A DNA stretch of 64,000 bases from Golubevia sp. BC0850 (taxonomy: Eukaryota > Basidiomycota > Exobasidiomycetes > Golubeviales > Golubeviaceae). Shown in pieces: positions 4,543-63,835 of this stretch. The notes below the pieces were generated by a model that was not told the origin of the DNA, did not search any database, and saw nothing but the letters and a program-made list of their open reading frames with translations. Numbering within the stretch: position 1 is the first letter of the stretch; each line of letters begins with the position of its first letter. The position numbers and the translations under genes are program-made. The stretch is from positions 1,798,001 through 1,862,000 of the forward strand of contig JAAVVG010000001.1 of assembly GCA_012976225.1 (NCBI GenBank). The letters are read 5' to 3'.

Positions 4543-6073
4543 CTACAACTTTGAAATCTCAGAGTTCCTGACAATGGCATCACGATTGATTTCATGAATG
4601 TTTTTCAATCCAGCCAGAGCACAATTCAACTCTAAGTCGGCCATCAAACCTCTAAAGACATCTGTTACCCCTTGTTCTCCGTTGACTGCTAGACCCCAAG
4701 CCCAAGGTCTTCCAATTCCGACAGCGTGAGCTCCAAGAGCTGACAAAAAAAAAGAATAAAAGGAGTTCTTAGTAATAGGAAATCAGTCTCCCCTCTCGCT
4801 CGAATTCTCTTTGACTCACCCAAAGCCTTCATAACATCCGCCCCAGTCCTAACTCCACTATCAAAAATAACAGTCTTTTCACCTCCACTCCAATTTCTAC
4901 AAACCTTAGCGATCTTTTCCAAAGTAAGTAAACTAGCAATAGCACCATCGACTTGTCTTCCACCATGATTTGAAACCCAAACTCCATCCATTCCATGAGT
5001 TAAAGCTTGAGTTGCGTCTTGAACAGTTTGAATCCCTTTCAAAACTATTGGGTTCTTACTTTTGTCATTTGAGTCTGAACTTCCCCATAGGTCTCTTAAT
5101 AAGGCTAAGTCTGACCACTTTCTAGAATTTCCGGGAGTTAGGAGAGAGATTGCTGCAAGAGAGGCTTGGAAGATTTCATCCGAGGTTGAATCTGTGGAGA
5201 GAGGTGATTTTCCATTACAGTACTTTTTGACAAAGATTGGATCTGAGAATAGGTTGGCAACTCCTTCTCCTTTGATGAATGGGTTGTAGGCTTCGTCTAG
5301 GTCGTTGGGTCTCCACCCGAGCGTCCAGGTGCTGAGAAAAGGAGAGACCCAAAAGGAAAGTCAGTCGAACGCCTGAATTGATTATAAGAGTTGAAAAGAG
5401 AAGCTTTTGAAATCCCACTCACTCGAGGGTTACTACCAAAACTTGATAACCTGCTTTCTTGGCTCTGGAAAGTAGCGAAGCTGTTAATTCATCGTCGGAT
5501 GGCCAGTAAAGTTGATAGTAGAGAGGAGTTCCAGTGGAAGCAAAATCGCCTTTGGAAGCAACCTCTTCTAATGGATAAGATGCAGCTGAGGAGTGAGCTG
5601 GAGAAAGAAGAACAAGAGGCGGGAATGAGTGACAAACGCAAACCTGGATCTTCTTCACTGATTGCTGACTCACTGTAAGGAATCCCAATCTGACTAACAG
5701 CAGAAGAAGTAGCTAAATCAGCATCTTTATGAAGTTGAGCTTGAACACCAATTGGACAAACCAAAAGTGGAGCAGAGATGGATTTTCCAAAGAGTTTGAT
5801 CTCAGTTTTGAAATCCTCTAATTGAACTCCATTTAACATTTTGGGTAAAATTGAAAATTCATCAAAAGCTGAAAGGTTGTTTCTCATAGTTTTTCCGGAT
5901 GAAGCACCTCCTTGAACGTAATTGTAAGATGCAAGTCCAAGTTGACTTTTCTCAAGAATTGATTTGGCTTGATCATGGAGAACTGAGTATTGAGTCGTTT
6001 GTGGCTTAATTCCAGTCAATCCTTGAACGTAAATCTCTCGAGAGAAAGAAGATTTTGGGGCAGAATAAGTCAT
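4543..6073 (-). CDS. FMN-dependent alpha-hydroxy-acid oxidase, lactate 2-monooxygenase type
   Basis: Exons 6073-5674, 5585-5423, 5331-4820 and 4739-4543 give 423 residues with all phases closing. Family features: QLYWPSDDELTASLL (flavin/substrate Tyr), TWTLGWRPNDLDEAYNPF, the active-site Lys in PIVLKGIQ, the catalytic His and substrate Arg in WVSNHGGRQVDGAIA, FDSGVRTGADVMKALG, and IGRPWAWGLA. The WRPNDLD insertion and the AWGLAVNGEQGV end point to the lactate 2-monooxygenase/lactate oxidase branch rather than glycolate oxidase. Likely reaction: oxidation of L-lactate or a related 2-hydroxy acid; the exact substrate is inferred. No targeting signal or cytochrome domain is evident. An in-frame upstream start near 6205 would add about 44 residues; I prefer 6073 because it sits just before the conserved region. 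Divergent from NUP85 by 155 bp. Confidence 0.9.
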
Positions 6074-13114: not shown

Positions 13115-16100
13115 TCAAAAGAGAGCGCCTCTTCCACCTCCCAATTCCTCTCTCCTGACCTTTTCTCTATCTCTATTCTCACTTTCCCAATTCCTACTTC
13201 TCTGAATTCTGTTCTCTTCCTTGATCCACATCCTGTTCATCAAGTTAGGGATAAGAGCTGAAGTAGAAGTTGAAGCCACCTCAGCAGAAGCAGGAGGAGT
13301 AGTAGTAATTCCTTTCAAGACATTTTCAACCGAGATGACCAAAGAAGCGTTCCTGTTACTTGCCAACAATTGTTTCTTGGTTGCTCTTTTCCCACCTGGA
13401 GAGACTCCATTTGAAGTAGAGTTGACGGACGAAGAATTCAAATGACCTGTAGCTGAAGTTGATTGAAGACAATCTGAATCGATAGAAAATAATCCTTGGA
13501 CTTCTAACAAATCAATGACAGCGATTAACTCTGAATGTTCTAAACTTGCGAAACTGCCTTCTTCCTTTAAGATGTAGCCATAAGTGGAGATTAAATCTGC
13601 GATTCTGATCTTTCCATTAGCAGCAGCTGAATTCAATCCAGTGTTGGATTTGATCGAAGAACTTCCAACCAAATTGTTTCCACCTTCACTCCCTAAGACT
13701 GACATGTTCTCTTCAGCCCTTCTTTTACAAACCAAGAAAGAGAGTAAGATCAATTTAGGATGTAAAGGTAAATTTCTGACTTTGGTTAATTGAGGAGATC
13801 CTAAAACTTGACCTAAGACTTTCAAGACATGAGTGGGCATGACTTTTGGAGCAGAAGAAGGAGTCATGTGAGACAAGAGTTTTGAAGAATCTAGATTATC
13901 GTTGGTAGGAACCTTTTGTTGAGTTTCTTGAGATGAATTTTGAGGAATGGAGATGGCGTCACTTGCTTTAGTTCTTTGTTCTAGTTCTACCAATTCAACA
14001 GCTAAACGACAAGCATCCAAGGCTTTCCTTAAATCTCCAGTGACTGCTGCGATCTTCTTAGCTGCTAATTCTAGAGCTGGAGAAGAGAATAGAGGTAATT
14101 GATTTGAAATTGGTTTTGCTGAAGAGGAGATTTGAATGGTGGAATTGCTGTGATCAACTTCTTCATCCGTACCGTCATAGCATTCGAAGAGCCCTTCTAA
14201 TCTGGATTTGACAACCGTGATGATCTCTTGAGCGTCGAACGGTCTGAAGTGTAGGAGCTCAGGCGATGCTCCTTTGCTTTGAAGCAACGGAACGAAACGT
14301 TCGGTTAAATCCAAAGAGTTTGCGATTCCGATTAAACCGCACGAAGAGCTTGGAGATGAAAGAGCGAATAGACGGTACAGTACGTTTTGATGAGCTCTGG
14401 AGTGAAGTAGGTGATCGATCTCATCTAGAACGATTAGTCTGTTGGAGAAAAAGCCATACGTCAGTGAATGGTCAACAAAACAGGTAGATCGATGGCTTAC
14501 ATTCCTTTAAAACTCACAATCCATTGTTGTCCTTTGACTTCTTGACAAGTTCATTGACTCTCTTCTCAGCTTCGATATCAATTTGTCCATCCTTTGCATT
14601 CTTGATAGGTCCTTCTCCCAAAGCATATAGAATCGCAGCCCAGATAAGACGAGGATGAGAAACCGTCATACAATTGACGAAGACACTTCTCGGAATTGGT
14701 AAATCAGATTCACCAGTTGCATCAGTCTTCTTGATTCCAGAAATGATAGATCTAATGAGAGCGGTCTTTCCGGTTCCAGGAAGTCCACAGACGTAAAGAC
14801 ATCCAGCTCCAACACTGTTAGGAGAAGAAACCAGGTCTAGATCATCTTCATCCTCATCTAGATCCATAGAAGATTGAGAAGACTGTTCGATGTGTGGGAA
14901 AATAGAGAATTTCTTGTGAAGGAAGGTCTCGACGTGGAGTCTTTCTGTTTCTCTACCGACTACTGAGACTTCGGTTTCTTCCTCTTCTTCTTCGGATGTA
15001 GTTGAAGTTGAGGTGACACCAGTGGCATAACGTAGGAGACTTCTAGCATGAGCGTAAACGTTAGTAAACCTCTTGAATAGAGAAGGTGATTCGACTTGCT
15101 TTGTTTCTTCTTCCTCTTCTTCTTCCTCTTCGATCGACTCGGACATGACAGTGTCGACAGTTGAATCTTCCACCTTGTTCTGAGACCCCTCTCCTTCGGT
15201 GACGTCAGTTCCAGGAGAAGAAGCTCTAGAAACAGTGGTACCCAAAGCGTAAATTGAGGAGGCATCTTCTTGACTTGCGGAGTCGAACAACGAGCCAGCG
15301 ATAGTTGAAGTCTGAGAAGAGAAGTATCCCTCTACATCGTCCCCGTTGTTACCATTTAGAGTGAGGTTTCCATGACTGGAGTCCAATTGAAGACGAGCTA
15401 GAGGAGAAGAAGGTCCAGCTTGAGAAGGTGAAGGAGTCGAAGTGATCAAACTAGAAGGTGCTCCACGACGAGAACGCTTGCGTTGACTTCCTTCTTGTTG
15501 GAGTGAAGAAGAATCTCCATCATTGTTTGAGGAAGATGGAGATCTAACGGTTCCTGCGCTGCTACTGCTTCTAGATTGAGCGATAGAGGGACGACCGCGA
15601 CCTCTGCGTTGCTCTGGAGCTGGAGAAGGGGAGAGAGGAGTAGATGGGCAAGAAAGAAAGAGCGCGCGCAGATGAGTGAGGTGGTGAACATTTAGAAGAT
15701 GATCAAAGTAAGGACATTTTAAAATATGCACGACAGCTATTGAGAAGTCGATAGACTTGCCCATTGTCTCCCCTTGTCCTGTCCAAACACCACGCGTCTC
15801 TCGAGGTACTCACTGGCATTGAATAGATTGTTACGCCCACTTGAAGATGGAGCATTAGCTCTAACACGTGAAGCGATAGAAGTCGAAGTTGGAGAGCTGA
15901 TGATCCCTTCAGAAGGAGAAGAAACGGAAGAAGAGGATAAACTTCTTCTAATAGGTCTTGGTGTAGAAGGTAAAGTTGTACTTTCCTCTTGACGTTGTTG
16001 AGCTCCTCTAGTCCTTCTAGCTACGACATCTTCTTCTCTTTCTCTTTGTAATTCAGTTGCAGTAATTGAATCTAAGAAAGGAGCTATGTTCTCTTTGTTT

Positions 16101-16564
16101 GAATCATCTCTTTCCTCCAAAGCTTCGGATTGAGAACTACAACCACCAACTCTATTCCTTCTTTCCCTTCCCTCGTCTTCTTCATCTTCGTTGTCTGATG
16201 GAGCTGTTGTTTCTTCTGACTTCAAGAGTAATTTTGAAGAAGTTGAACGACGAGAATTACGTGGTTTGGAGGGAGAGTGAGTGTTGGAAGAGGAGGAATT
16301 GGAACGGGAAGAAGATGGGGTGCTTTGAGCTGCTTTGGTTCTGGCTCTGGTTGAAACGGGTGTTGAAGGTGAGGATTGAGTCCTTTTGAGAGATGGTGAA
16401 GTATATGCAGAAGAAGTTGAAGATTTAGACTTGAGAGAGGAGGAGGAGGAAGAGCTGTTTGAATTGGATGACTTTACTGGTTTGATTGGATGATGAGATT
16501 GAGTTTGTGAAATTGAATCTGAAGGTAAATGAGATCTTGTTGATAATGCTCTAGTGGATGGCAT
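13115..16564 (-). CDS. CDC6: Cdc6/Cdc18 replication licensing AAA+ ATPase
   Basis: Loads the MCM helicase with ORC and Cdt1 at origins; nuclear. Exons 16564-15814, 15619-14518 and 14438-13115 give 1,058 residues. The first 500 or so residues are Ser/Thr-rich and disordered, with an AT-hook-like RGRGRPS near residue 256 and basic SRR clusters that could be CDK targets. The AAA+ core has Walker A GLPGTGKT (about 529), Walker B LIVLDEIDHLL (about 618), sensor 1 GIANSLDLTERF and sensor 2 GDLRKALDACR (about 749), followed by a winged-helix region. GIANSLDLT and the DxRKALD context favour Cdc6 over Orc1, and no BAH domain is present. It is nearly twice the length of human CDC6 (560), mainly through the N-terminus. 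The exon-2 acceptor has an alternative 6 nt downstream, also in frame. Confidence 0.9.
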
Positions 16565-17232
16565 CTTTGAAGGAGAGAATCTTACTTGTTGATTCCCTTT
16601 TGGGAGGATTGGGTGGGTTGCGAGTCTAGGACGATGATCCCGAAAGGGAAGGAGGTTGCAAGAGATGCAGAGAGAGATTGAGTTGTTACTTGTAGATTGA
16701 GATTAGATCTGAAAGGATTGAACGTAATAGGAACAGAGACTAAGAATCGGATGAAGGAAGGAAGGTAAGGTCTTGAAGGGGTTTATAATACGTTGGGAAA
16801 GGAAAGAAGAAGAGCGAAACTGGATCCGACGTCCTTCTGCTTGCCATTGCCCGTTCAATCCCAGCTCAATTTTCACTCTGTTCTGCTTCCATTATCGCTT
16901 AAGAATTCTGTTTTGGATTGATTCATTGAAACAACCGGTGTAAGTTACATTTCATGATTTGAGAAGTCGAGGAAAGCCGCATCTTGTTCTTGAGACCCTT
17001 AAAGTTGGCGTCGCGAAGTTGAGACGCGCCGTGAAGAGCCCCACAACGTGGCAACTCTCGCTGGAAGCCTAAATCTTCCTCTTTCTCATCCCATCGTCTT
17101 TCTCTCCCTTCCAACTCAAAGTTGAGTCCAAAATGGATGCGAGAGCTCCCCCCAATCCTCAAGTGAGTCAGAACGATCCTTCTCGTCGGTAGGAAGGATG
17201 AGTTCTTTCTCAGAGCCACGAGCCACGCCCAG
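16565..17232. other. Intergenic region upstream of the left inverted-repeat arm
   Basis: Starts with the CDC6 promoter/5' UTR and runs to the outer edge of the inverted repeat. Open frames on the minus strand (16,923-17,352) have no recognisable content. No target-site duplication with the outer side of the right arm is visible; the two flanks share only CCCAG at the junction. Confidence 0.5.
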
Positions 17233-17667
17233 AAACTTTGAGAGCCTCTCTCCTTTCGAGTGGCAATCCCCGCTTGTCGATCGCACCGGAGGAACTCCAA
17301 AGAGAAGGGAAGAGATCCTCGGTCCGTCCTCGCGTCCTCTACTTCTACTCATCCTCTTGGGTTTCCTTTTCGCCCCCTCCCCTAAATCTTACCTCATCCT
17401 TCCTGTGTTGAAATCTGAGATTCAAATCCATCCTTCTAGACCGAGATCCTGCAAATCAGGGCCCGGGGATCTCTCGTTCTCACCTCGAAGACAAGCAATT
17501 TTTTGAGTTAGAGGTCGATGCGCAGAAGACTGAATTGAGCGGGGTAAGGACGAAAGTTTCGACTTTCAAGCTTTCCCCTGAAGCCTCAAGTCACGAAACC
17601 TTCTTTTCGAAGGTTCCTACTCTTGATTTGAAAAGAGAAGCTTTTCTTTTGAGCGGGTGGAAAAGGA

Positions 17668-17675
17668 TATATAAG
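17668..17675 (+). promoter_or_regulatory. TATA box of the left secreted-protein gene
   Basis: TATATAAG about 150 bp upstream of the ATG, followed by a long CT-rich leader with a run of ten C. A palindromic GAAGGTTC (17,609-17,616), matching a heat-shock-element half pair, lies about 55 bp further upstream. This architecture suggests a strongly expressed, inducible gene; that is inference. Confidence 0.6.
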
Positions 17676-17821
17676 AGGCGACGTCTCGAATCGAACTTCT
17701 CTTCCCCCCCCCCTCTCTCTTCATCCACTCTCTCTCTTCCCTTCTGTCTCCCATCACACTCTCTCTTCAATCACATCTCACTACCTGCTCAACATCCAAA
17801 CCACACCTCTCAAACTACAAC

Positions 17822-18743
17822 ATGCAGTTCAAATCTCTCATCGTCTCTCTTCTCTTCGCCTCTTTCATCGTCGCTTCTCCTGTCGACGTCGACGCTGATG
17901 CCAATGGATTGGTCGGTCGTCAAATCTTGGTAGAGCCTCGTGGCTACGAGTATGGAAATGATGACAAGTACGGAAAGACTAAGAGTGAGTATCGTTCGTT
18001 GGTTGGTTGGTGGAGGGAAAAAAGAGAGAGAGAGAGGCTTGGCTCGCCACCCGGATCGATTGTGTCGCTGACCTTCTCCTCTCTTCCTCTTTCTTCCCTT
18101 CTCTTCCCTTCTCTTCTCTTCTCTCCTCCCTTTCAGCTGTCACTAAGACCGAGTACAAGTACAAGAGTAAGTGTTTGGTGGTTGAATTTTCCATCCTCGG
18201 GTCTGACCATTCCCCCTGTTTTTTTCTCTATTAGCCAAGTACGTCCCGGGAAAGATCAAAACCATAACTGAAAGTAAGACTGAATACGTTCCAAAATACA
18301 AGACTAAAAGTGAGTATCTCTCTTTCATTCTCAAGTTTCAAATCAAAGTATCACCGTCTAACATCTTTCTTCTCTTTCCTCTCTCTCGCGTAGCCGTCAC
18401 CGATTGGAACGTCTCTACCAAAATCATCAAAAAACCTTATACCGTCACTACTAAAGTTCCGGAAACTACCACCGTCTTTTACCCAAAGCCAACTACCGTT
18501 GTTGAGAAGAAGACCAAATACGTCAAAAAACCTTTCACTGTCACTTCTACTTCAATCGTTGAGAAGAATTTCACCAAAACCATCACCGCAGCTACTACCG
18601 AGTTCGTCAAGAAGCCTCAAAAAACTGTTACTGCAACTGTGACTGTTTCCAAAAAGGGAGGGTATGGAGGACATGGAGGACACGGAGACGACGATGAAGA
18701 TGAAGATCACTCTCGCCCAAAGACTACTACTTACGCCTACTGA
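17822..18743 (+). CDS. Small secreted Thr/Lys/Val-rich protein, copy 1
   Basis: I do not recognise a named family. Exons 17822-17984, 18137-18166, 18235-18309 and 18394-18743 give 205 residues. A clear signal peptide (MQFKSLIVSLLFASFIVAS) is followed by an acidic pro-like segment with a potential Arg cleavage site (VGRQ). The mature part is built from degenerate repeats around TVT-K-TEY-K and KKPxTVT-T (TKYVPGKIKT, KKPYTVTTKV, KKPFTVTSTS, KKPQKTVTAT), a pattern of beta-strand-prone cell-wall or extracellular proteins. It ends with Gly/His then an Asp/Glu cluster and TTTYAY. Exons 2 and 3 are tiny and each begins and ends in the same phase, coding one repeat-like unit, which hints at growth by exon duplication. 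No GPI signal. A second copy with the same translation lies at 26,206-27,127. Confidence 0.85.
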
Positions 18744-19185
18744 ACGATGTCTTTCAAGAATAACCTTTGGAATCCACCCTTTCGTCTAGCTTTTGTACAC
18801 TAGCCAAGAGCCTCTCACTTTCCTTCCTTTACCTCTGATTTCTTTGTTCCAACCTGTCTTTCATCAAATCACTCTCATTTTTCAATTCCCAACGTTCTCA
18901 TTTACCAATCCTCTCTTTTCTTTCCATTGCTCTTGATGTTTAGTATGTCTTGTCACTTTCATTCATGCTCTCTTTTTTAATTCAAAGCTTTCCCAAAGAA
19001 CTTTTGCTCTTGTCGTTTTAGTGTCCTCTTTTCTCTTCACTTGCAAAAAGGGGTTTTATTGATGTGTTCATAGACTCATCGTTCATCGTTTCCCAGCAGC
19101 GACTTTGGCAGGCCCGGCAGGTATGAAATAGAATGAGTTCTTTCAAGTACATGGAATTGTGATTGATAGTCTACGAAAAGAAGGT

Positions 19186-21032
19186 TCAAATTTTATGTAA
19201 AGCGTCGTCGATAGCTCTTCCAAGTTGCTCTACTTCCTCCACCGTATTGTAATGTAGAAGAGAGACTCTAACTACACCATCCGAGTCACTCAAACCTATA
19301 GATGTGATGAGTCTGTAGGCGTACATGTGACCTTGCTGAAAGCCAAGCTGTTGAGAGGCGAAGAATGGAGAGGGAGGAGAGGGAGAAGACAAGGGTGTCA
19401 GTGCTCTTAGAAATAAGTCCAATTCCAGTCGTTCCTGTATCTACCAAGTAGAGAGGAGATGCAAACTCACCTTTCCGCTTTTGACGATCTCTTGATGGAA
19501 CTTCGCACTCCTCTCAGAAGTTTTCCCTTGCTCATCTACGACGACGAATGCGACGGTTGGTACTCTCACAGAATGATCATCACTTTCACTACCAACGATC
19601 TTGATCCTATCATTTCGAGAGTTTAAGAAAGTGATCAGAGTCTTCAATAACTTGGCTTCGTGTTCTGACATTCTCTTGAAGGCTACTTGAACTTGTTTCC
19701 TCACTTTAGACAGTTCTTCTTTGTTGTCTGGTTTGAAAAGGCTAGACCAGTCGATAGATTTGGGCTTGGTGGTCGAATAGTCCGCAGATCCCAGCCAGAA
19801 GAAGTATTCCATAACTGAAGAGATTGAGGCTATCAACTCGTACTGTTGAGAGGAAGGCTGATAAGAATACATTCCAGTATAATGGTCGTCGTTCGTGATG
19901 AAATGATGATTCAACTTTGTTAAAAGTTGGGATTTGGCCTTTGGAGAGACGTAAAGGGATCCAACATGAGGACCATAGACTAGAAGCGTTTGGAGGGCGA
20001 AAAAGTCAGTGGAAGTCTCAAAAAAGTGCGATATGCCCTCGAGACTCACCTTTATACCAGCTCCAGAGAACGAAATCGGCTCCCCACTCTTTTGGAGATA
20101 GCCCTTGATGAGGAGCAAAAGCTACAGCATCGACTGCAACCCAGGCGTTCGACTTCTGCTTAACGATTTCAGAGACCTCCTTGATTGGTACGACCCCTCC
20201 TAGTACATTGGAGCAGGCGGTCAAGGCCACGAGTCTAGTTCTGGAAGTGATTAGAGTTGGAAGAACCTTTAGATCCAGTCCTACAGAGTAGCGGTTCGAG
20301 GTGGAGGACAGAGGCGTAACTGGCCAATCTACAATCTTCAGACCAGTTCTTGCGGCCAGACGAATCCAGGCACCTCGATTTGCTGAGTAGAAAAGGAAGA
20401 TAAGAGTCCGTTAGACGAAATGAGGCGATTAAGAGGGAGAGATTTGGGCCTGAAAGCAGAAACAAACCTTCATGGTCGGCATCACTGAGGATAATCTCAT
20501 CTCCTTCTTTCCAGACAGGCTCAGATCCATCTCCAACTTTCTCTCCAGACCTTTGCTTTAGCACAGAGGCTTCGATCATTCGGGAGAGAGTTTCAGCGAG
20601 CTGGGTTGCTGACCTGGGTTTGCGAACCGAAGAGTAAAGGGTTAGTCTTTCTCTCTCTCTCGTAGCTTCGCTCCTTCACCCTTCGAATCAGCTAATTAGA
20701 TCCCTAGCTCACCCTCCAAACATGACATCATCAGGGCTGTCAGCTCCAGAGAAGATGGCACCAGCAGCTGAACCGTTTGCAACCTTTCCGGCAGCTGTTG
20801 CCGCCAGAGCGTAGTTGGCCATCTGAACGTTAGTTTCGAGCATATAGGAAGTTATTGACTCCGGGACAGACTTGAGAACTTGAGAGCCACCAGCATTCTC
20901 GCAGAAGACTGTGAAGAAGGGAAGAAGAAACGTTAGGGTCACATGAACCAAGATTGAGATAGGAGAAGACTCACTGTACTCTGGGTTGTTGATGAGAGCT
21001 GGGAACTGAGATCTGACAGCCTGGACGTCCAT
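19186..21032 (-). CDS. Class V aminotransferase, cysteine desulfurase-like
   Basis: PLP enzyme of the fold-type I class V family. Exons 21032-20975, 20908-20713, 20613-20468, 20382-20050, 19979-19471 and 19347-19186 give 467 residues. Visible landmarks are FCENAGGSQV near the N-terminus, EIILSDADHEANRGAW (the H-x-AN block), LVALTACSNVLGGVVP, VDAVAFAPHQ (Asp for the pyridine nitrogen), the Schiff-base Lys in SWYKVYGPHVGSLYV, and a C-terminal RVSLLHYNTVEEV. The layout resembles the desulfurase-like subgroup typified by VC1184 rather than NifS/IscS; the conserved active-site Cys loop of true desulfurases is not evident, so the substrate is unknown. Its stop codon is only 13 bp from the inner edge of the left inverted-repeat arm, so its 3' UTR should overlap that of the convergent secreted-protein gene. 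Confidence 0.85.
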
Positions 21033-21044
21033 TTTGGTGAGCGA

Positions 21045-21140
21045 GGGAAGGAAGGAAGGAGGGAAGGAAGGAAGGAGGGAAGGAAGGAAGGAGGGAAGGA
21101 AGGAAGGAAGGAATGAAGGAAGGAAGAAAGGAAGAAAGAG
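21045..21140. repeat. (GGAAG/GGAA)n microsatellite
   Basis: Nearly uninterrupted GGAAG/GGAA units just upstream of the aminotransferase start. On the minus strand the tract is open in the same frame as the aminotransferase and reads as Pro-Ser-Phe-Leu repeats from an upstream ATG at about 21,284, so it could be 5' UTR or a variable N-terminal extension. Confidence 0.9.
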
Positions 21141-21394
21141 AATCTCATTTCGAAAGGAGGTCTGGCGACCGACCGTGATCCACGTGGCGAACGGGGTGGC
21201 CCAGCAAAATCTACGAGGCTTCTCTGACAAACCATCCCATCCTCTTTGGCTCTTTGATAACCTCGACAGCTCTAACAAAATCAATCCTCACTTCAAGTAA
21301 CGCAAGAAGAAGCAGAGAGGAAGCTTAGACGAACTCCTCTTTCTACCTTTCCCCCGCACCCTCTCCGCCCCTCTCCAGTCTCTCCTTACAAAAC

Positions 21395-24300
21395 ATGGCC
21401 ACTCCTCCATCTCCAGTCAAGAAGTCATCTACTTCCTCAAAGCGAAATTCAGACTATGATTCAACCAACAGTGGAACGAATAGCACAGAATCATCGGCAG
21501 GTGTAGCTGGTGAAAAGATTCCCCTCTCATCCAACGTAACTGAAAGTAGGAGGAGAAGCAATATGCCTGCTACCATCCAAGGAAATGAGAATCAAGATTA
21601 TGGTCCTTATTCTCACATCAAGAAAGGTTCAATGGGAGATGTTCATCAAATGTCAGTAGGAGCTCCAAGAGGTAGAGCGGGTTCCAATAGTACGGGATCA
21701 AACAGTAACAACAGTAGGCAGAAGTTGGCAGTCCCCATCTTACCTAGGAACGGTCAGGCTCCAGGGAATAGATCAAGTGCTCTCTCTGCAAATTCTGCTT
21801 ACTCAGATTATCCTTCTAATTCAAGTCATGAGAAGAGTGTGATGAAGAACGTAGGAGGTCAGGCGGGAGGAGCAGGAATGGTTTGGGATTCAAAAGACCC
21901 TGAAATGGATGATTACCTGGTGAGTTCAAAGGGGGCGCAGAGTTGCATGTGCTTTGTGAAGGCCAGGAAGCTTTGCATGGGTGGATTTGGAAGAGAGTCT
22001 GTCTTTGGGTGGGAGGCGGACATTCCCCGGACTGGCTGAGAGTGTTGCTATCAGCACGTCGAAACCAACCAGTTGAGAGGCTGAAACCATTGGCCTTTCG
22101 GTCGGAGTTGGGAAAGCGTTGGCCTGATTTCTCACCAAAATTTATGGTCCTTACGTCAAATCCGAACTCGCAGCACAATCCTGATCCTATCAAAGACAAG
22201 AAGAGAGATTGCGGGTGGAGCACCAGAGGGTTGATCAATGTGGCAGCCCTATCAGTCGTAATCGCTGGCTTGTTGGCTCTGTTTGCTGGTGAGTTTGAAT
22301 GCCTCGGTTTCTTAAGAAAGAAGCGGAAGAAGTGAAGAAGGTAGCGGAGGAGCAAGCAGTCCCTCTGCCCTCGAGACCTTTCAAGCTGACCAAGTCCTCT
22401 CTTCTTCCGTCTCAGGATATCCTCTTATTGCAGCTCTGACTCGCTCGGAGGTTGGAGGAACCGAGAGTGGTTTCAACATTGGAGGTAAGCATGGACTCTC
22501 GGCATCAGCTCGATCCGCCTCTCTCGACTCATCACCCCCTCCCCCTTCTTTGCCCTCGCCTCTTCTTCAGGAGCAAATGGAACTGGTCAAATTCCAGACA
22601 TCCCAAATCTCTCTCAATTGATCGACGTCGACACGCCCTCTTCAGCGCAAACCTTCACGTCACAGATCTCGGGAGACTCGTTTCATATCGTCTTCTCGGA
22701 TGAGTTCGAGGTGGAAGGGAGGACCTTCTGGCCGGGTGACGATCCTTTCTGGGAAGCGGTAGATCTCTGGGTGAGTGTTCTAGATTAATCTCATCAAAAC
22801 TCTCGAGGTTCTAGACAATACCAGCGACAAGTTCTCACTCTCTGCGTCTCACCCTCCCCCCTCTATCCGATTTCTCACCTCTTCCTAACACAGTATTCTG
22901 GAACACAGGTGAGTCACGAGGACCGGCTGGACGAAACTGAAGATGCTGTAGCATCCAGAAACCTTCTCCAAGCCAAAGATCTGACGTCTCTTCTCTTATC
23001 ATCATCCCGTTCTCTTTGCGAACAGGACTACGAGTGGTATTCTCCCGAAGCTGTGAACACCACTGGAGGTGCTTTGGTTCTCGAGATGACTGCACAGCCG
23101 ACCCACAACCTGAACTTCCAGTCTGGGATGTTACAGGTGAGTCAACGATCGCAGAAAGAAAAGTCGTTTTGTTGCAGGTACTCACTCCTCTTAGTCTCCT
23201 TCTTTTCGGTTCTGAAACTTCAGAGTTGGAACAAGTTCTGCTTCACAGGTTAGTGTCGAATCAAATATCGTTTGAATCCTACGAATTCTTGAGCTGACCT
23301 TTTTGCATTCACTTAACCTTGTCATCTCCAAAGGTGGTTACATCGAATTCTCCGCCATTCTGCCTGGAGACGTTGGCGCTCGTGGATATTGGCCAGGGTG
23401 AGTTGTGAAAGCGTTGTGACTTGTTTCCGTTTGATCAGACACATGCCTCTCCTCCGCTCACACCTTCTCTCTCGTCCTCCGTCCTCTAGTCTCTGGCTGA
23501 TGGGAAATCTCGGTCGTCCAGGTTACTTGGGATCTACTGATGGAATGTGGCCATATTCTTACGATTCTTGTGAGTTGACGCTTTCTCGACTGAAGTGAGC
23601 TTGGTCCACTTGTTGACCCCCAGTCTGCTTTCTCTACTCTCTAGGTGACACTGGAACTTTAGCAAATCAGACCTTTGTCAATGGAACTGGTCCGGCCGGC
23701 GCTCTCGAAGCCACAGCCGCTTTCAGTGGCCAATACGACAACAGACTCAGTTTCCTTCCGGGTCAGAGAGCCAGCGCTTGTACTTGCGCCAGTAGCGCTT
23801 CAGAGCACCCAGGAGTGAGTACGAGACCTTCGATCGAGCCTCCCCTGGTGTTGGTGCTTACCACACGGCCCTTTCCGCCCTCTTCTCTCTCTCTAGCCTA
23901 GCGTCAACGTCGGAAGAGCAGCTCCGGAACTCGACATCTTGGAAGCTCAGGTATCTCAAGGCAGAGGTCAAGCCAGTCAGTCCCTCCAGATCGCTCCTTT
24001 TGACCCCAACTACACCTATGGAAACACCTCGGTGACCACAACTTTCTATGACGATGAGACAGTGAGTGAGGCGAGATGGTCACCAACGTAGGAAATGGAT
24101 GTGCTGACTCCAACCTTTCTTTTCCTATCTCGTTTCCTCCAAAGGTATGGAACTCATACACCGGAGGTTAGTAGCAAGAATGGGGTTCTGTCGAGCGACT
24201 TTCACTGACCCATTCTCCCCCTTCCCACCCTCTCTTGCCTCACGCAGGAGCCTTCCAAGAAGCAGTCAGTGCTTTGAGCTTCATCCCAGCTAAGGCTTAT

Positions 24301-25235
24301 GCTGGGTACGTCGCTCCAGAGTACACTACCTTTGGAATGGAGTACAGTCCTGACTACGATGGAGATGGTCAAGGTAAGTTGCGAAATCGACTATGTCGGA
24401 AAGAAAGAGAGGCGAGCCAAGCAGCTATCTGACGTGTTTCACTCTTTCTTTGATTGTCGTCATCTAGGCTCGGTTACTTGGTACATCGGTAAGTTAGGAT
24501 CAGGATGATATATGTGAGATCATTTTCGTCAACTGACATCGAACTACAACTCCTCCTCTTCGCTACCCTCTTCCTTTCTCAGACGGAAAGCCAACTTGGC
24601 ATCTAACTGGAGCATCAGTTGGTCCTCGACCTGAAGTTGACGTGGGGCAGCGCTTGATTCCAGTCGAGCCAATGTCGATCATCATGAACTTGGGTATCTC
24701 TGAAGGTTTCCAAACCATTCACTTCAATGAGCTCACTTTCCCTGCTTCGATGAAGGTCGACTACGTCAGAGTCTATCAAAGAGATGGAGATACTGATAAG
24801 GTGAGAGCGTGAGAGAGAAAGGCGTCAACGCAAGAGGGAAGAAAGGCGAAGAAGTGAACGGGAACAAGCTTCTGACTTCCTTTTTTTTTCTTTTTTTTAC
24901 CTCTTCTCCATTTCTTAGATTACTTGCGATCCATCCGACTATCCAACCAAGTCGTATATTGAGAACCATCTTGATCTCTACTACAACCCAAACCACAGTG
25001 AGTCCCGTCAACAATCGACTTTGAGTCAAAGTGGAACTGACGTTGCACACTTTCTCCTTTTCCTCCTCTCCTTCTTTCTTTCTCGCCTTACAGCCGTCTT
25101 CCCCACAGATCTGTAAGTTAGCCGAAGCTATTTCACATCATCAACATTCAACAAACAGGATCTGACTTTCCTCTTTCCCGCTTTTGCTCCTGCAGCTATC
25201 CCTTGCCAAAGAATCGCCTCCGGGATTCTTGCTAA
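21395..25235 (+). CDS. KRE6: KRE6/SKN1-type beta-1,6-glucan synthesis protein (GH16)
   Basis: Type II membrane glycoside hydrolase/transglycosylase family 16 protein needed for beta-1,6-glucan assembly, in the secretory pathway or plasma membrane. Eighteen exons give 687 residues: 21395-21919, 22174-22288, 22416-22484, 22571-22770, 22894-22908, 23026-23136, 23224-23248, 23334-23397, 23490-23569, 23645-23814, 23897-24061, 24145-24166, 24248-24373, 24468-24488, 24583-24800, 24919-24997, 25094-25112, 25196-25235. A Ser-rich cytosolic tail, DDYLHNPDP, one membrane segment (about 193-215), FSDEFEVEGRTFWPGDDPFW, the catalytic ELDILE (469-474), several N-glycosylation sites, DYVRVYQRDG and the family end YPLPKNRLRDSC are all visible. 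Exon 5 is just 15 nt (YSGTQ), and exons 7, 12, 14 and 17 are 19-25 nt. Confidence 0.95.
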
Positions 25236-25775
25236 GCATGAGCCTACTATCCACTCTTAAAGGACACTCGGTCAACTTTTCGAAATGACTTCATCGATCT
25301 CGTAATGGTCTCCAGGATTTTTTCTCTCCTGTTTGTGTTACCCAAACTCTGTACTTTTCTGCAACTCCCCTCATCCCCCTCATAAAAAAGCTCCATGTTT
25401 CTCATCGTCTAGAAGAGACTGTCTCACTCCTATATTCCCTCTCGGACAATTTCTGTTACTTCTTTTTCTTTACCCCTCTCTGGTCCCTTTGCTGTTCATT
25501 TTCCTTTCCCGTTCTACTCGTTCTCTTTCCTTTAGGATCTGGACCAGAAATGCTTCTTTTAATGTTCTGTGACTTCTGTCTTGTCTTTCTGTCGCTGTCA
25601 TCACTTCTTCATCATTTTGTCTCACTTCTCTTTCGTCGGCACTCTTGAAAATCGAATGTATAAACTCTTATCTGTTCTTTTGATTTGAAGTTACACGATC
25701 GTTTGAAACGGAAAAATGCGATGAAGACACAGAGAGTTCTGTCAAGCTGCCAGTTTGCCAACTGTCAGCCGTCAA
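25236..25775. other. KRE6 3' region up to the right inverted-repeat arm
   Basis: Pyrimidine-rich 3' UTR and spacer of the glucan-synthesis gene. No gene seen. The inner edge of the right repeat arm follows directly. Confidence 0.5.
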
Positions 25776-26205
25776 TAGACTATCAATCACAATTCCATGT
25801 ACTTGAAAGAACTCATTCTATTTCATACCTGCCGGGCCTGCCAAAGTCGCTGCTGGGAAACGATGAACGATGAGTCTATGAACACATCAATAAAACCCCT
25901 TTTTGCAAGTGAAGAGAAAAGAGGACACTAAAACGACAAGAGCAAAAGTTCTTTGGGAAAGCTTTGAATTAAAAAAGAGAGCATGAATGAAAGTGACAAG
26001 ACATACTAAACATCAAGAGCAATGGAAAGAAAAGAGAGGATTGGTAAATGAGAACGTTGGGAATTGAAAAATGAGAGTGATTTGATGAAAGACAGGTTGG
26101 AACAAAGAAATCAGAGGTAAAGGAAGGAAAGTGAGAGGCTCTTGGCTAGTGTACAAAAGCTAGACGAAAGGGTGGATTCCAAAGGTTATTCTTGAAAGAC
26201 ATCGT

Positions 26206-27127
26206 TCAGTAGGCGTAAGTAGTAGTCTTTGGGCGAGAGTGATCTTCATCTTCATCGTCGTCTCCGTGTCCTCCATGTCCTCCATACCCTCCCTTTTTGG
26301 AAACAGTCACAGTTGCAGTAACAGTTTTTTGAGGCTTCTTGACGAACTCGGTAGTAGCTGCGGTGATGGTTTTGGTGAAATTCTTCTCAACGATTGAAGT
26401 AGAAGTGACAGTGAAAGGTTTTTTGACGTATTTGGTCTTCTTCTCAACAACGGTAGTTGGCTTTGGGTAAAAGACGGTGGTAGTTTCCGGAACTTTAGTA
26501 GTGACGGTATAAGGTTTTTTGATGATTTTGGTAGAGACGTTCCAATCGGTGACGGCTACGCGAGAGAGAGGAAAGAGAAGAAAGATGTTAGACGGTGATA
26601 CTTTGATTTGAAACTTGAGAATGAAAGAGAGATACTCACTTTTAGTCTTGTATTTTGGAACGTATTCAGTCTTACTTTCAGTTATGGTTTTGATCTTTCC
26701 CGGGACGTACTTGGCTAATAGAGAAAAAAACAGGGGGAATGGTCAGACCCGAGGATGGAAAATTCAACCACCAAACACTTACTCTTGTACTTGTACTCGG
26801 TCTTAGTGACAGCTGAAAGGGAGGAGAGAAGAGAAGAGAAGGGAAGAGAAGGGAAGAAAGAGGAAGAGAGGAGAAGGTCAGCGACACAATCGATCCGGGT
26901 GGCGAGCCAAGCCTCTCTCTCTCTCTTTTTTCCCTCCACCAACCAACCAACGAACGATACTCACTCTTAGTCTTTCCGTACTTGTCATCATTTCCATACT
27001 CGTAGCCACGAGGCTCTACCAAGATTTGACGACCGACCAATCCATTGGCATCAGCGTCGACGTCGACAGGAGAAGCGACGATGAAAGAGGCGAAGAGAAG
27101 AGAGACGATGAGAGATTTGAACTGCAT
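26206..27127 (-). CDS. Small secreted Thr/Lys/Val-rich protein, copy 2
   Basis: Second copy of the gene at 17,822-18,743, transcribed toward KRE6. Exons 27127-26965, 26812-26783, 26714-26640 and 26555-26206 give the same 205-residue product with signal peptide, TVT/KKP repeats and acidic Gly/His tail. All splice sites are retained and the frame is open, so both copies should be functional. The whole promoter with its TATA box is included in the repeat, so the two copies should respond to the same signals unless distal elements differ. Confidence 0.85.
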
Positions 27128-27273
27128 GTTGTAGTTTGAGAGGTGTGGTTTGGATGTTGAGCAGGTAGTGAGATGTGATTGAAGAGAGAGTGTGATGGGA
27201 GACAGAAGGGAAGAGAGAGAGTGGATGAAGAGAGAGGGGGGGGGGAAGAGAAGTTCGATTCGAGACGTCGCCT

Positions 27274-27281
27274 CTTATATA
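27274..27281 (-). promoter_or_regulatory. TATA box of the right secreted-protein gene
   Basis: TATATAAG on the minus strand, the mirror of the left-arm element and at the same distance from the start codon. Confidence 0.6.
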
Positions 27282-27716
27282 TCCTTTTCCACCCGCTCAA
27301 AAGAAAAGCTTCTCTTTTCAAATCAAGAGTAGGAACCTTCGAAAAGAAGGTTTCGTGACTTGAGGCTTCAGGGGAAAGCTTGAAAGTCGAAACTTTCGTC
27401 CTTACCCCGCTCAATTCAGTCTTCTGCGCATCGACCTCTAACTCAAAAAATTGCTTGTCTTCGAGGTGAGAACGAGAGATCCCCGGGCCCTGATTTGCAG
27501 GATCTCGGTCTAGAAGGATGGATTTGAATCTCAGATTTCAACACAGGAAGGATGAGGTAAGATTTAGGGGAGGGGGCGAAAAGGAAACCCAAGAGGATGA
27601 GTAGAAGTAGAGGACGCGAGGACGGACCGAGGATCTCTTCCCTTCTCTTTGGAGTTCCTCCGGTGCGATCGACAAGCGGGGATTGCCACTCGAAAGGAGA
27701 GAGGCTCTCAAAGTTT

Positions 27717-28053
27717 TCTGGGTCGCCGTTTCGAGAAAACCTGAAAATCACCCCTTTGGATCTGGTATGAAGGGAAGGAAGGTAGGAGAGGACAAGGACG
27801 GTAGGCTGGGAAGCTGAAAAAAAGTTGTCAATTCAAAGAAGTTAGCAATCCAAAAGTCAACGGGTTGAATGAAGGGAAAACAAGTCTCAATTCCAGCGCT
27901 CGTTTCACACAAGCTTTGGTTGAGGTTGAGATGTCACTGAGCAGACCCTCTGATCCAGAACCTTCATTTAACTTCTTATCTGATGAATTGAATTGAATTA
28001 ATGAGAAGCTGAGAATTTCTGAATACAACAAGAGAGAATCGAAAAGTCAAAGA
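27717..28053. other. Intergenic region outside the right repeat arm
   Basis: Spacer between the repeat edge (upstream of secreted copy 2) and the PDCD5 3' end. No gene, terminal repeat or target-site duplication seen. Confidence 0.5.
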
Positions 28054-29120
28054 TCAAAGGTCAAATAAATCATCATCATCCTCTTCAGGTTGAACCACTT
28101 TTTTGCGTGTGTACTTCGGTTGCGAAAACCGGATCATCCCAAAAGAATATAAGGTTGAAAAGAGAAGGGAGAAGTAAAGTTCTGTGTCAATCATAAACTT
28201 TCCCTCCAGGGAGAGAAGGCGGGTGATTCGGTAGAACTCAAACTCACAGTGATTTTCCCTCTATTATCATCCCCACCTCCCTGAGCCTGCTCCACCTGAT
28301 CTAATAAACCAATCAATTGTTGTTCTGAAATCTTTTGTTTGATTTGACCTGATTGAGCCATTCTGAGGAGTAAGTCTTGGATTTGACGAGCTTTGGAAGG
28401 TTTGACCATTGCTATTCTTGATACTGGGATGGGGAAGAAAACAGAAAGAAAGAGAATCATAGAGGGTCAAGAGGTAGAAAGTAGGAAAAGGGTGTAAGAA
28501 AGAGAAAAGAGAGTGGGAAGTAGAATGTATGCTAGAGAGAGACGCTGATAAGTAGAGCTCTTGAGTTGACGACCATCTGCTGAATCATTACGTCACGGTT
28601 CTGATTATTTCTAAAAAGCTATTAAATCGATTTCAAGGTGAAATGCCAGCTTTCTAGAGGAAGTCCAATGATTCTACCTCTCTTCGAGTTGGCTGAATGA
28701 ATTCTCGACTCTTTTATCTACCTGTTCTGCAATCTCGCCAGACTTTCTTCATTATTCAAAAAAACACACAGCCCCTTCTAATACTCACACCTCTCTCTAG
28801 CGTCATTATCCAAAATCCTACTCATCAGCTGCCTTTTCTGCTCTTCTTGTTGAGCCATTTGTTCCTCATCATTCCCACCTTGACCCTGTCCACCTCTTCC
28901 ACCTGCACCTCTCGATGTACTTGCACCCATAGATTCTAGGAATGAAGATGAAGGACCTGTAGTGAGGAAGTGAAGAGTGTCTCAGCATCTTATTCCGCTG
29001 AATGATCTGAGAGACAAATGAATACTGACCAGCTCCTCCTGAAGCACCGTTGTCTCCTCCTCCCTGCCTTAGTTGAGCCATTCTAGCTTGTCTGATTGCT
29101 TGAAGTTCTTCGTCTTCCAT
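28054..29120 (-). CDS. PDCD5: PDCD5/TFAR19 family protein
   Basis: Conserved helical protein of archaea and eukaryotes; in animals it is linked to apoptosis and to the TRiC/CCT chaperonin. Exons 29120-29030, 28956-28789, 28423-28248 and 28113-28054 give 164 residues. The start EDEELQAIRQARMAQLRQ, the core MSRILDNDARERLSRIAMVK, QIKQKISEQQLIGLL and the end TYTRKKVVQPEEDDDDLFDL match the family order. A Gly/Ser-rich insertion of about 40 residues after the first helix makes it longer than the usual 125. The donor of intron 1 is GTCAGT. An in-frame ATG 111 nt upstream would add residues of unlike composition, so I start at the MEDEEL methionine. Confidence 0.95.
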
Positions 29121-29706
29121 TTCGAATTTGTGTTGGAATAGTTGTTGATCTTTTGAAGAAGGGTCGCGTGGGAAGGTCGATTGGAGATGTTCGATTGCAA
29201 CTTCCTCCTCGCAGCATCCCATCCCAAACATTCAAATTAAGCGCACTAATCTTCTTGGAATTGAAGTTAACATCGAGAACAAGATCAAGAATTAGAAAGA
29301 CTACAATTCAAACCTAAGCTTTTTCCCGTGAGTGTAGAATTCTGGATTGGGTGTCGTATCTATGGTATTCCTCCACTCCTACCCCCTTCTACCCTCTCGT
29401 CTACCATCCACCTGTAGACCATGTTCATGGTCATGGTGGATAGATTTACTACACGAATTACAAGTTAGAGTCATGTCCCTGTCACTTACCTTTGTATCTT
29501 TGCCTTCTGCCCCTCTTTCTCTCCTCTCGCACTCTTTGCTCGCTACCCTTGCCTCCCATCCTCAACCATCTCATCTCCACTTCTTATCGTACTTCCATCT
29601 GAACTCAACTATCGCAACTTCAAATTTCAATCATCTCTCTCCTTCAAATTCTCCTGCAACTTCGTGCTCGTCAGACTCTCCTCTCTCTCATCAACTTAAC
29701 AGCAAG
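29121..29706. other. Divergent promoter region, PDCD5 / Osh6-like gene
   Basis: Intergenic stretch of 586 bp. The half near the lipid-transfer gene is CT-rich leader (about 29,500-29,700). No TATA box or recognised operator seen. Confidence 0.5.
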
Positions 29707-36405: not shown

Positions 36406-39400
36406 ATGGCTCCAGTAGCAACAGAAGACATTCACATAATCTCAGACAATACAAACTACAGAAAGACTTGTCTGGTGGTAGGCTTAGGAATGGTGGGAAT
36501 TGCTTTCGTCGAGTGAGTACTCAGTCTTCCGGCCAATCTCTTAATATATCTACTAATTCGTCCTTTCTCCTTCCTCGACTTTTCCCAGAAAACTTCTCAA
36601 ATTTGATTTGGAAGGCGGAAGAGATGAGTGGAGAGTCATAGTGATTGGAGAAGAGCCACACATTGCGTGAGTGACAAGAAGATCAACTTGGACTCGAAGT
36701 CAAAATGGTGAACGATGTTGACCTTGTTTCTCTCTCCATCTTTCAGTTATAATCGAGTTGGTTTGACAACCTATTTTGACAAACGGGACGTCGAAGATCT
36801 CTACCTGAATCCTCTCAAGTGGTACCAATCACACGCTCCTGGAAAGCTCACTTATCACACTTCAGATCCAGTCATCTCAATCGATGCTGCAGCTCACTCT
36901 CTCACTACGAGCAAAGGTTTGAGATTCGAATACGACGTCTGTGTCTTAGCAACAGGATCAGATGCTGCCTTACCTCCCTACGTCAGTAGAGAAAGATTCA
37001 GCAAGACTACCGGAAACTTCGTCTACAGAAACATTTCAGATTTAGACTCAATGATAGCTTATGCTGAAGAAAGGCCTATCAAGAAGGCTGCTGTAGTTGG
37101 TGGAGGGCTCTTAGGATTGGAGGCAGCTCACGCTCTGCTTCAGCTAGAGACAGTAGACAAGGTTATCTTGGTGGAAAGAAACAAATGGGTTCTCTCCAGA
37201 CAGCTGGACGGAGAAGGAGGTAGAATGGTTTTGGATAAGGTCAGAGCTCTAGGAGTTGAGGTTCTATTAGAAGCTAAGGTCAGAGACATTCGTGTCGAGG
37301 AGGATTCGGAAGGAAACCAACGTTTCAATGGAGTTATGCTGCAAGGAGAGCCGGATCAACCATACGACTTGGATATGATTGTGAGTCAAGTATAGAAGTT
37401 AAGTCGTTCTGACCTCGTTTAGTATCTAATGTCTTTTCTACCTTCTCGTCTTCCTTTCTTTCTCGCAGGTCTACGCCGTTGGAATTACACCTCGTGATAA
37501 CCTAGCACATGTCTCAGGTCTCAAGACCGCTCCAAAAGGAGGATTCGAGATCGATCAACATCTTCTCACTTCTCAACCTGACGTCTATGCCATCGGTGAA
37601 GCAGCTTCATTCAACAACACGACCTTTGGAATCATAGCTCCTGGAGTCGAGATGGCGGACGTTCTTGCTTTCAATCTTACAGAAGCTCAAACCCATGCAA
37701 AGAGAAGCCTAACATCTTTCGACCTCTCTACCAAGCTCAAGCTGATGGGAGTTGACGTCGCTTCTTTCGGAGACTTTTTCGCCGACTCTGGAAAGTTGAC
37801 TCGTCCACTTCCTGGAAGTAAGAGACCTTCTAGGAAAGGAGCAGCTGCTGAAGAAGGAGCTCCTTTGGTCAAAGCTTTGACATATAGAGATCCTTTCTGT
37901 GAGTTGAACGTTTGGTTTCGACCTACACCTACACCTTCTCTTTCGCACTCTTTCTCCTTCTCTCATTTCGTTGCTGACGCTTCTCTTGTTTTCATCTTTT
38001 CCAACTTCCCTCCTTCTTTTTCCAAGCTGATGTCTACAAGAAGTATCTTTTCACTCCAGACGGAAAGTACTTAGTCGGAGGAATGATGGTAGGAGATTGC
38101 AAAGACTACGTCAAGCTGGTCTCGATGTGCAACAAAGGAAAGGAGTTGGAGAAGGCTCCTTCCGAACTGATCGTTGGCTCAAGTCAAGGAGAAGATGATG
38201 GAGGAGATCTCGACGACGATACAGTTATCTGTTCTTGCCACAACGTGAGCAAAGGAGCTGTCGTCAACGAAGTCAAAGCTCACGGCTGCAGAGCTTTAGG
38301 AGAAATCAAGAGCAAGACCAAGTGCGGGACGGGGTGCGGAGGATGTGTTCCACTGATGACTTCAATTTTCAACAAAGCCATGATAGAAGCAGGAGCCGAA
38401 GTCTCGAACGCTCTTTGTATCCACTTCAAGTACAGTCGACAAGAACTCTATACTCTCATCAAGTTCAGGAAACTTCAAGATTTCACTACGGTCATGAGAG
38501 AGGTCGGAATCAAACCAGATAGTTTAGGATGCGAAGTCTGCAAGCCTGCTATTGGATCTATCTTATCGTCTCTTTGGAATTCCTTCATCATGGCTCCTCA
38601 ACTTCGTCAGACTCAAGACACGAACGATCGCTACCTAGCCAACGTTCAGAGAGATGGAAGTTATTCTGTCGTACCTAGACTACCGGCAGGAGAGATCACT
38701 CCAGCTGGTTTGAAAGCAATCGGAGAAGTAGCTGAGAAGTTCGGTCTTCACTCGAAGATCACTGGAGGACAGAGAATCGATCTCTTCGGAGCTAACAAGC
38801 AGGATCTACCCTCTATCTGGCAGATGCTTGTTGAGGCTGGTTTCGAATCAGGACATGCTTATGGTGAGTGTTGAAGATCTAGAAGAGATGGGGTTCGAGG
38901 TGACGGATCTGTCGCAGCTTCCCTCTTCCAATCGTTCTGACACTATACACACGTCAAAACCGGAGACATTCATCTGGCAGCTTTCAAATTCTGACTCTCT
39001 TGCCTACTCTTTCTCCCATCTCCAGGGAAATCACTTCGTACCGTCAAGAGTTGTGTTGGAAACACTTGGTGTCGTTATGGATTAGCTGACAGTGTTGGCT
39101 TCGCTGTGGAATTGGAAACTCGGTACCGTGGGATCAGATCTCCTCACAAATTCAAGGGTGGAGTTAGTGGTTGGTGAGTATTTCCTCCAATTTGTTTTCC
39201 CTTTAAGTCAAGAATCATCTTCTCATCTTTCTTCGACTCCTTCTGACCTTCCCAGCGTTAGAGAATGTGCTGAAGCTCAAGGGAAAGACTTCGGGTTGAT
39301 TGCGACTACCAAAGGTGAGTTGAGCAAAAAGAGCCGTTGTTGCGCTGCCTCGTCTCTTTGGCCGTTCACCAGAAGGCTCTACGACCGGAACATCTGTTCT

Positions 39401-40834
39401 ATGACTGTCGAAGCTCATCTGAATCGATAGTTGATCATATTTTACTCTCTTTTCTCAGGTTGGAATGTATTCGTAGGAGGAAATGGTGGAGCTACTCCTC
39501 GTCACGCAGAGCTCATAGCCGAAGACGTCACTCGAAGACAAGCTGTCAAGATTCTAGACAGATACCTCATCTTCTACATCAGAACTGCTGACAAGCTTCA
39601 GAGAACTGCCAGGTGGCAAGAGAGCTATCCTGGAGGCTTGAAAGGAATAAAGGAAGTCATAATCGACGACAAGCTTGGAATTTGTGCGGAGCTCGAAAAG
39701 GAAATGGAGGTGCTAGTAGGTGAGTTACCAAAAGTAATGAGTCTCATAGTAGAACTCAGGTCGGAGGGAATTTATGGAAATGAGAAGGGGGGGGGGGCTG
39801 ACTTCGCTCGAAACTGCTTTCGACATCCCTTCCCTTGTTTTCCCTTTTGTCTGACTCCTCACAATTTTCTTCCTTCTTCTTCTTAATTCTATTTCTCTTT
39901 CCTTGATTCTCTCTGCTCTCTCCCTCTTACCTTCACTCTCCAGGAACTTTCCACTGCGAATGGACCAAAGTCGTCAAAGATCCTGAACAAAGATCTAGAT
40001 TCAGACAGTTCGTCAACACGGAAGAGACTCAAGATCAATCCGAGAAAGTTCTGGAACGTGGCCAACTAAGACCTGCCGATTGGTCAGAAAACGCGACTCC
40101 TCTCAAGTTCAGTCCCAAGCAGATCATCGCTTCTGCAACATGGGAATGGAGATCGATCTGTCGACTTTCGGATCTTGACCCTCAAGAGAACGCTCCAACT
40201 TCAGCAGTCGTCAAGTACGGCGATACTCAAATCGCTATTTGGAACATTCCTGGAAGAGGTTTGAGAGCCTCTCAACAAATGTGTCCTCATAGAAGAGCCT
40301 TCGTTCTCAGTGATGGATTGATCGGAGAAGACTCGAAAGGCAGAGATTACATCTCTTGTCCTTTACACAAGAGAAATTATGTTCTCTCTCCAAAGGAAGC
40401 TGACGAGCCTGGTTCATGTAACGATGCCGACTATCAGGTGAGCAAGAGTAGAGGTTCTTGTCGCCATCGAGACTTCCCGCTCACTGATCCTTCTCACTCA
40501 CTCTCCTCTCTTTTCCCCTTTTCTTCTCTCCTCTCAATCTTATGCTTCCCCTCTTACTCTTTAGATCATGACTTTCGAAGCCAAGAGCAACGAGAATGGA
40601 GACGTTCTCCTCAAGCTTCCCCCAAAAAACGCTTTGGATGCTGTGCTCGGAACGAGTAAATGGATGATTAGGAAAGCTCAGGAGGAGATGAACTTCCTAG
40701 CAGGAGGAGAAGAGCAGGGGCATGGAATCGAAATCGCTGGTCCTACTGCTGTTGTTGAAAACGAGGCTGCTGGGAAAGAACCTCCTGTTGGAAAGCAGAA
40801 GGTCGCTTGTGGCGAATCAAAGTTGGATTGGTAA
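36406..40834 (+). CDS. niiA: Assimilatory NAD(P)H nitrite reductase
   Basis: Six-electron reduction of nitrite to ammonium in the cytosol. Ten exons (36406-36512, 36589-36666, 36747-37380, 37469-37898, 38027-38863, 39026-39173, 39256-39314, 39459-39719, 39944-40437, 40565-40834) give 1,105 residues. Order: FAD/NAD(P)H domain with VVGLGMVGIAF and VVGGGLLGLEAAHAL; a BFD-like [2Fe-2S] unit with ICSCHN and CGTGCGGC; siroheme domain with cluster cysteines in SCVGNTWC (about 705 and 711) and GCVRECAEA (745 and 749); and a C-terminal Rieske-like domain with QQMCPHRRAF and SCPLHKRNY. The Rieske C-x-H/C-x2-H pairs are complete. The gene starts 341 bp from nitrate reductase. Confidence 0.97.
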
Positions 40835-41376
40835 AATAAAGTAGAATTATTTCTTCGTCACCGTGTTTTCTTTTCCTTTTGGTCACGTAGGCTTTTTTTT
40901 TCGACTTTTCAATCAAATAGACAAATAACTCAACGCCTCCCTCGCTCGCTACTCAGCTCGAACTCCTCCTATCAGCAGCCCGAAAGAAGAAGACCTTTCT
41001 GTAGACTCCGTTCTCACAAGATATGTGCACTGAGATGTCTACGATGGAATTGAACTTCTGGATCTAGATCCTGAGTGAACGAATCGGACTCAACGGAGAT
41101 CAAATTTCAAATGCGATACCTTATCTATAGGGGCCTCTCTTATCAGCATTCAAGCAACGATCCTGACACTCGCTCTCCAGCTTCGAGGCTGGCCGCCAAA
41201 TTAGATCTCTTAGATTAGAGAGCAGGTCCAACAGGCTCAAAGATAAGATAAAAGAGGAAGAGGGAGAGAACTTCCACGACTTCTTCTTCTTCACCATCCC
41301 TTCTCATTCTCCAATCTCCATCTCTACCTCAACCACCTTTCCGTTCGGCTCAAGACACAACCAAGCCTTTTTTACA
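40835..41376 (+). promoter_or_regulatory. Nitrate transporter upstream region with GATA sites
   Basis: Gap of 542 bp between niiA and the transporter. CTTATC at 41,120 and 41,139 and a tandem GATAAGATAAA at 41,242-41,252 are the same AreA/NIT2-type cores as in the niaD-niiA promoter, with the pair about 125 bp before the start codon. The rest is niiA 3' UTR and CT-rich leader. Confidence 0.65.
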
Positions 41377-63793: not shown

Positions 63794-63835
63794 TGGACAA
63801 GAGGAGTCTGACGAGTGAGCTTGGAGGGGAAAGAG
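63682..63835 (-). pseudogene. Relic of an FMN lactate monooxygenase-type gene
   Basis: The minus strand resembles exon 2 and the end of intron 1 of the gene at 4,543-6,073 (counterpart about 5,454-5,607): the acceptor region AGCTCACTCGTCAG, then CPLEEVVLKGDLAS against YPLEEVASKGDFAS, then bases that match GGCCATC.GACGATGA.. and end in CCAGAGCCAAGGAAG. Identity over roughly 150 bp is about 70% by eye. One-base and three-base gaps relative to the intact gene break the frame within the exon, and the active-site His and Lys regions are not found nearby, so this is a fragment. Confidence 0.65.

Follow-up and report, generated by a model that had tools for sequence, protein, structure and literature searches.

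A gene-bearing 1.94-kb inverted repeat around an aminotransferase-KRE6 core in Golubevia sp. BC0850: probably a recent duplication within a family of secreted-looking proteins

The window analysed here, namely the whole stretch of 64,000 nucleotides (64 kb), contains two arms in opposite orientation which are exact reverse complements of each other and enclose a small single-copy core. We consider it probable (roughly 0.6) that these arms are the product of a recent segmental duplication, inverted and made at the DNA level. The first-pass annotation had placed two opposite arms of exactly 1,941 bp at 17233..27716, and both coordinates and length proved exact. The base-by-base alignment it proposed, with many mismatches named as the adverse outcome, has now been run and gives 0 mismatches in 1941 positions. 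The structure is laid out as follows:

17228..17232, forward strand: CCCAG abutting the left arm on its outside; its counterpart lies beyond the right arm at 27718-27722, minus strand, before a longer A-run
17233..19173, forward strand: left arm of the inverted repeat, 1941 bp, 100% complementary to 25776-27716
19174..25775, no strand assigned: single-copy core, the 6602 bp that separate the arms
25776..27716, reverse strand: right arm of the inverted repeat, 1941 bp

The identity of the arms spans promoter, exons, three introns, 3' region and homopolymer runs, in agreement with the earlier remark that introns, untranslated regions and homopolymers match. A chance origin of this match is excluded, because at E 1e-10 the window yields just one further repeat pair, with 151 columns at 72% identity. 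That weaker pair is a direct repeat, located at 5454-5603 and 63682-63826, at opposite ends of the window. The arms lie on contig C11 (2.23 Mb) of a 25.77-Mb assembly in 64 contigs, and searching this assembly with the arm found and scored at least two places, both of them the known arms.

At the outer end, the BLAST alignment of the arms reaches 1947 columns with one gap, since CCCAG is followed by AAA on the left and by AAAA on the right, where the A-run is one base longer. The repeat can thus be described either as perfect over 1941 bp or as carrying a single indel some 5 bp from its outer end. On the inner side, the match between the arms ends abruptly. Beyond the arm edges, the 600-bp flanks gave Smith-Waterman scores of 22 (outer) and 21 (inner), with shuffle means of about 20; these scores were equalled by 64 of 300 and 114 of 300 shuffles, respectively, so that no homology remains in these flanks except CCCAG. 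Neither arm, nor the unit taken as a whole, is bordered by an exact target-site duplication.

Each arm carries a complete gene, for which we use the following coordinates:

17233..17821, forward strand: promoter region common to both arms; it includes TATATAA (17668-17674) and a run of ten C (17704-17713)
17822..18743, forward strand: left gene copy, exons 17822-17984, 18137-18166, 18235-18309 and 18394-18743, 205 aa, hand-made model
26206..27127, reverse strand: right gene copy, identical to the left copy over 922 bp

The four-exon model of 205 aa was built by hand from GT-AG sites, and places the whole coding sequence inside each arm, together with 589 bp 5' of the ATG and 430 bp 3' of the stop codon; the claim that each arm holds an entire intron-bearing gene is thereby borne out. 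Three of the four exons are detected in both arms by the genome search. The models of the splice finder were rejected, for they disagreed between the arms, the left one having fused an upstream open frame and the right one having retained part of intron 1. The protein has a hydrophobic N-terminus, with a signal peptide called by eye, and Thr, Lys and Val abound in its remaining part; it looks like a small secreted protein and matches no Pfam family at E 1. Its codon usage is strongly biased: all 36 Thr codons are ACT or ACC, while the other two Thr codons make up 25% in six reference frames of the window, Ile is encoded by ATC in 8 of 9 cases and Val by GTC or GTT in 21 of 23. From such a bias we infer high expression, the gene being probably a strongly expressed one. 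A 102-aa open frame at 17198-17506 (forward strand), which crosses the outer edge of the left arm, was considered as a marker of the left copy being the original and set aside for want of homologues: no Pfam family matches it at E 0.01, the longer frame enclosing it has a match below the cut-off (E 0.3), and a protein search with it retained 0 of 9 candidates at E 0.1.

The core and its surroundings contain genes of other kinds:

13115..16926, reverse strand: ORC1/CDC6-like AAA protein, the neighbour on the left (rough model with doubtful 5' exons)
19186..21161, reverse strand: class-V (cysteine-desulfurase-like) aminotransferase gene, PF00266 at E 5.3e-26 (rough model, 5' end uncertain)
21395..25260, forward strand: KRE6/SKN1-type beta-glucan synthesis gene, PF03935 at E 5.3e-103 (rough exon model)
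28248..29222, reverse strand: right neighbour, PDCD5-like dsDNA-binding protein, PF01984 at E 4.3e-16 (rough model, 3' end doubtful)

The Pfam matches confirm both genes that had been named for the core. By sequence, the best solved relatives of the aminotransferase are the aminotransferase-like FGM3 (E 4e-48) and UstD (E 4.1e-33). Only 12 bp separate its stop codon (19186-19188) from the left arm, and consequently its 3' untranslated region very probably falls within that arm. For the KRE6 protein, the closest named relatives among 120 of 579 matches listed, obtained with a rough query model, are those of Parajaminaea (43% identity) and Sympodiomycopsis (41%). Relatives of this kind point to the Ustilaginomycotina and, within them, probably to the Exobasidiomycetes. 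Beyond the PDCD5-like gene on the right there is a gene for an oxysterol-binding protein. ARAGORN, in its bacterial setting, reports no tRNA in the 64-kb window. Elsewhere in the window, an uninterrupted frame at 49446-56246 comprises 2266 codons between stops and far exceeds the remaining open frames in length.

When 5.8 billion proteins were searched with the arm protein, 2 matches emerged among 215 candidates. One of these (P0002) reproduces a read-through frame in the arm itself, at 149 of 149 residues; the other (P0001) comes from a different source, a contig of 2038 bases, where it forms a frame of 210 aa. With TGA read as tryptophan, P0001 shows 3 differences from the arm in 209 codons, the start codon being left out, and the alignment covers part of intron 2, intron 3 and sequence beyond the stop codon of the arm gene. 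The count should be read as at least 3/630, and its three differences come from one contig that possibly contains errors; compared with the differences between the arms, it gives p 0.015 in Fisher's test (3/630 vs 0/1941), or p 0.12 if only the same stretch is considered (3/630 vs 0/630). The arms thus seem to be more alike than either is to the version of another isolate or close relative.

Within the assembly, contig C25 carries two genes that resemble the arm protein over its residues 4-54, with 49-50% identity (E 3.1e-4 and 3.9e-4). These genes belong to a near-identical pair of segments at 37662-41065 and 161767-164991, which lie in opposite orientation about 121 kb apart and encode single-frame proteins of approximately 349 and 295 aa, rich in Lys, Asp and Gly; the copies differ in the number of internal tandem repeats. 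Their identity is patchy: a piece of 1388 columns, comprising the upstream region and the 5' part, is 86.0% identical, while another of 2158 columns is 98.8% identical; the first upstream windows of 100 columns have 74-87% identity, and there is one run of 1064 bp without substitutions. Among 20000 permutations, a run of this length was reached by 0, 2 and 14 when the alignment stretch started at 100, 453 and 611, respectively, under the assumption of even mutation along the stretch, whereas part of the run is coding. Gene conversion typically leaves abrupt changes of identity, and the mosaic of the C25 pair suggests that the process has acted on it. Further members of the family are found at C25:103905-104399, C2:246842-247714 and C2:99434-99610; they have in-frame stops along the match and are either pseudogenes or genes with unmodelled introns. 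The sequence compared for such repeats comprises contig C25 with its 170 kb, plus 84 kb from C11 and 10.5 kb from C2. Only two repeat pairs in it reach 1 kb and 95% identity, both of the secreted family and both inverted; the sample is biased, because C25 and C2 were chosen for carrying relatives of the arm gene.

How did two copies of an intron-bearing gene come to be identical in this locus? The absence of differences in 1941 positions, introns and homopolymers included, counts for recency, as do the 3 of 209 codons at which the foreign version differs; the sharp edges, moreover, argue against a pair that has been decaying for long, since the margins of an old pair should be worn. Against recency counts the position of the only candidate difference, which sits so near the limit of the homology, at 5 bp, that conversion would fail there, even if it could equally reflect microhomology at the junction. 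On the C11 pair alone, recency and fresh homogenisation are indistinguishable. The arms could be an old inverted pair held identical by gene conversion, as in the flip/flop region of Saccharomyces, with occasional crossovers flipping the core. We regard this alternative as possible yet clearly the less probable. It draws on the related C25 pair, in which 74-87% identity upstream gives way to the substitution-free run, on the larger distance of the foreign version than of the arms from each other, on the outermost location of the candidate difference, and on the Saccharomyces repeats, which are homogenised within strains while keeping stable boundaries (PMC9731477). The C11 arms, however, lack the worn margin of the C25 pair, and the permutations for the latter presuppose even mutation over a run that is partly coding. 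The alternatives offered by the first-pass annotation, copies either very recent or kept alike by conversion, consequently both stand, the C25 pair being what suggests the second.

Perfect identity over 1.94 kb could also be produced by misassembly or polishing, if a single-copy segment had been duplicated in the assembly or if slightly different copies had been made identical by ambiguous read mapping. We judge such an artefact improbable: all four arm flanks differ, the same assembly separates the near-identical C25 pair while keeping its differences, and for the comparable repeats of Saccharomyces independent long-read assemblies agree for the seven strains that were compared (PMC9731477). 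The enclosure of cargo genes between two inverted arms further recalls a mobile unit with terminal inverted repeats of 1.94 kb, in the manner of a composite transposon. This reading is very hard to maintain, given that no exact target-site duplication surrounds either arm or the whole unit, that the core gene models, though rough, match only the aminotransferase and KRE6 and hence no transposase, and that the assembly search found no further arm. A retrocopy is ruled out, because both copies carry identical introns.

For a recent inverted duplication, which we prefer, a segment of 1.94 kb with the complete gene would have been copied in opposite orientation 6.6 kb away. The copying would have taken place during the repair of a break, by one of two routes. 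Template switching may have laid down the inverted copy, and the CCCAG common to the outer junctions could then represent the microhomology used. Alternatively, the copy may be the by-product of an inversion with staggered breaks, in which case the aminotransferase-KRE6 core would itself have been turned round. The lack of differences would mean that too little time has elapsed or that conversion has erased them, and the arms would now be open to gene conversion and, at a low rate, to recombination that flips the core. Conversion between the C11 arms is likely in view of the C25 pair, and inverted arms could in principle flip the two core genes. The hairpins, the double dosage and the wall role envisaged in the first-pass annotation are conjectural, the protein having no Pfam match at E 1 that would mark it as a wall protein. 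Taking the gene family into account, the best reading is a recent duplication in a family that probably also undergoes conversion, resembling the flip/flop repeats of Saccharomyces. A bolder proposal, which we hold to be doubtful, is that this family of fast-evolving genes, in a fungus of the smut lineage, habitually forms conversion-homogenised inverted pairs and toggles the DNA between them, so that a flip/flop system would have originated independently in basidiomycetes, switching the orientation of KRE6 and its neighbour.

The C11 locus is a clean example of a type of structure that is already known; no title that we found in the literature names it, a result at the level of titles which cannot show that the locus is unreported. 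A perfect inverted repeat bearing a gene and enclosing a small core offers a natural test of how duplicates originate, how fast they are homogenised and how frequently they flip. Together with the mosaic pair of C25, it points to one family of secreted-protein genes with duplication and, probably, conversion. If flipping were true, the phenomenon described in Saccharomyces would extend to a distant fungal lineage.

In the Saccharomyces flip/flop region, on chromosome XIV, near-identical inverted repeats of 4.2 kb flank a core of 24 kb and no flip was seen in approximately 53,800 mitoses and 950 meioses, even if the repeats do flip on evolutionary time scales (PMC9731477); frequent flipping of the C11 core is therefore not to be assumed. 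The likeness lies in near-identical inverted repeats that contain entire genes, members of a lineage-specific and fast-evolving family, with unrelated genes in the core between them, but the C11 arms are perfect and shorter, and their core has two genes in 6.6 kb. In Drosophila mojavensis, staggered breaks at inversions 2q and 2h left inverted duplications, in which one to several kb of formerly single-copy DNA, in one case with most of a gene, came to lie inverted at both ends of a segment, much as in C11 (PMC3355041). In contrast with those duplications, the C11 arms have no differences. A mammalian parallel is provided by X-linked inverted repeats, reportedly those of FLNA/EMD. For these, recurrent inversion and conversion are on record (Caceres et al., as cited in PMC9731477). 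They are highly alike inverted repeats with a small core between them, as in the C11 locus, although recurrent inversion is a reported feature of the mammalian repeats and not of the C11 arms.
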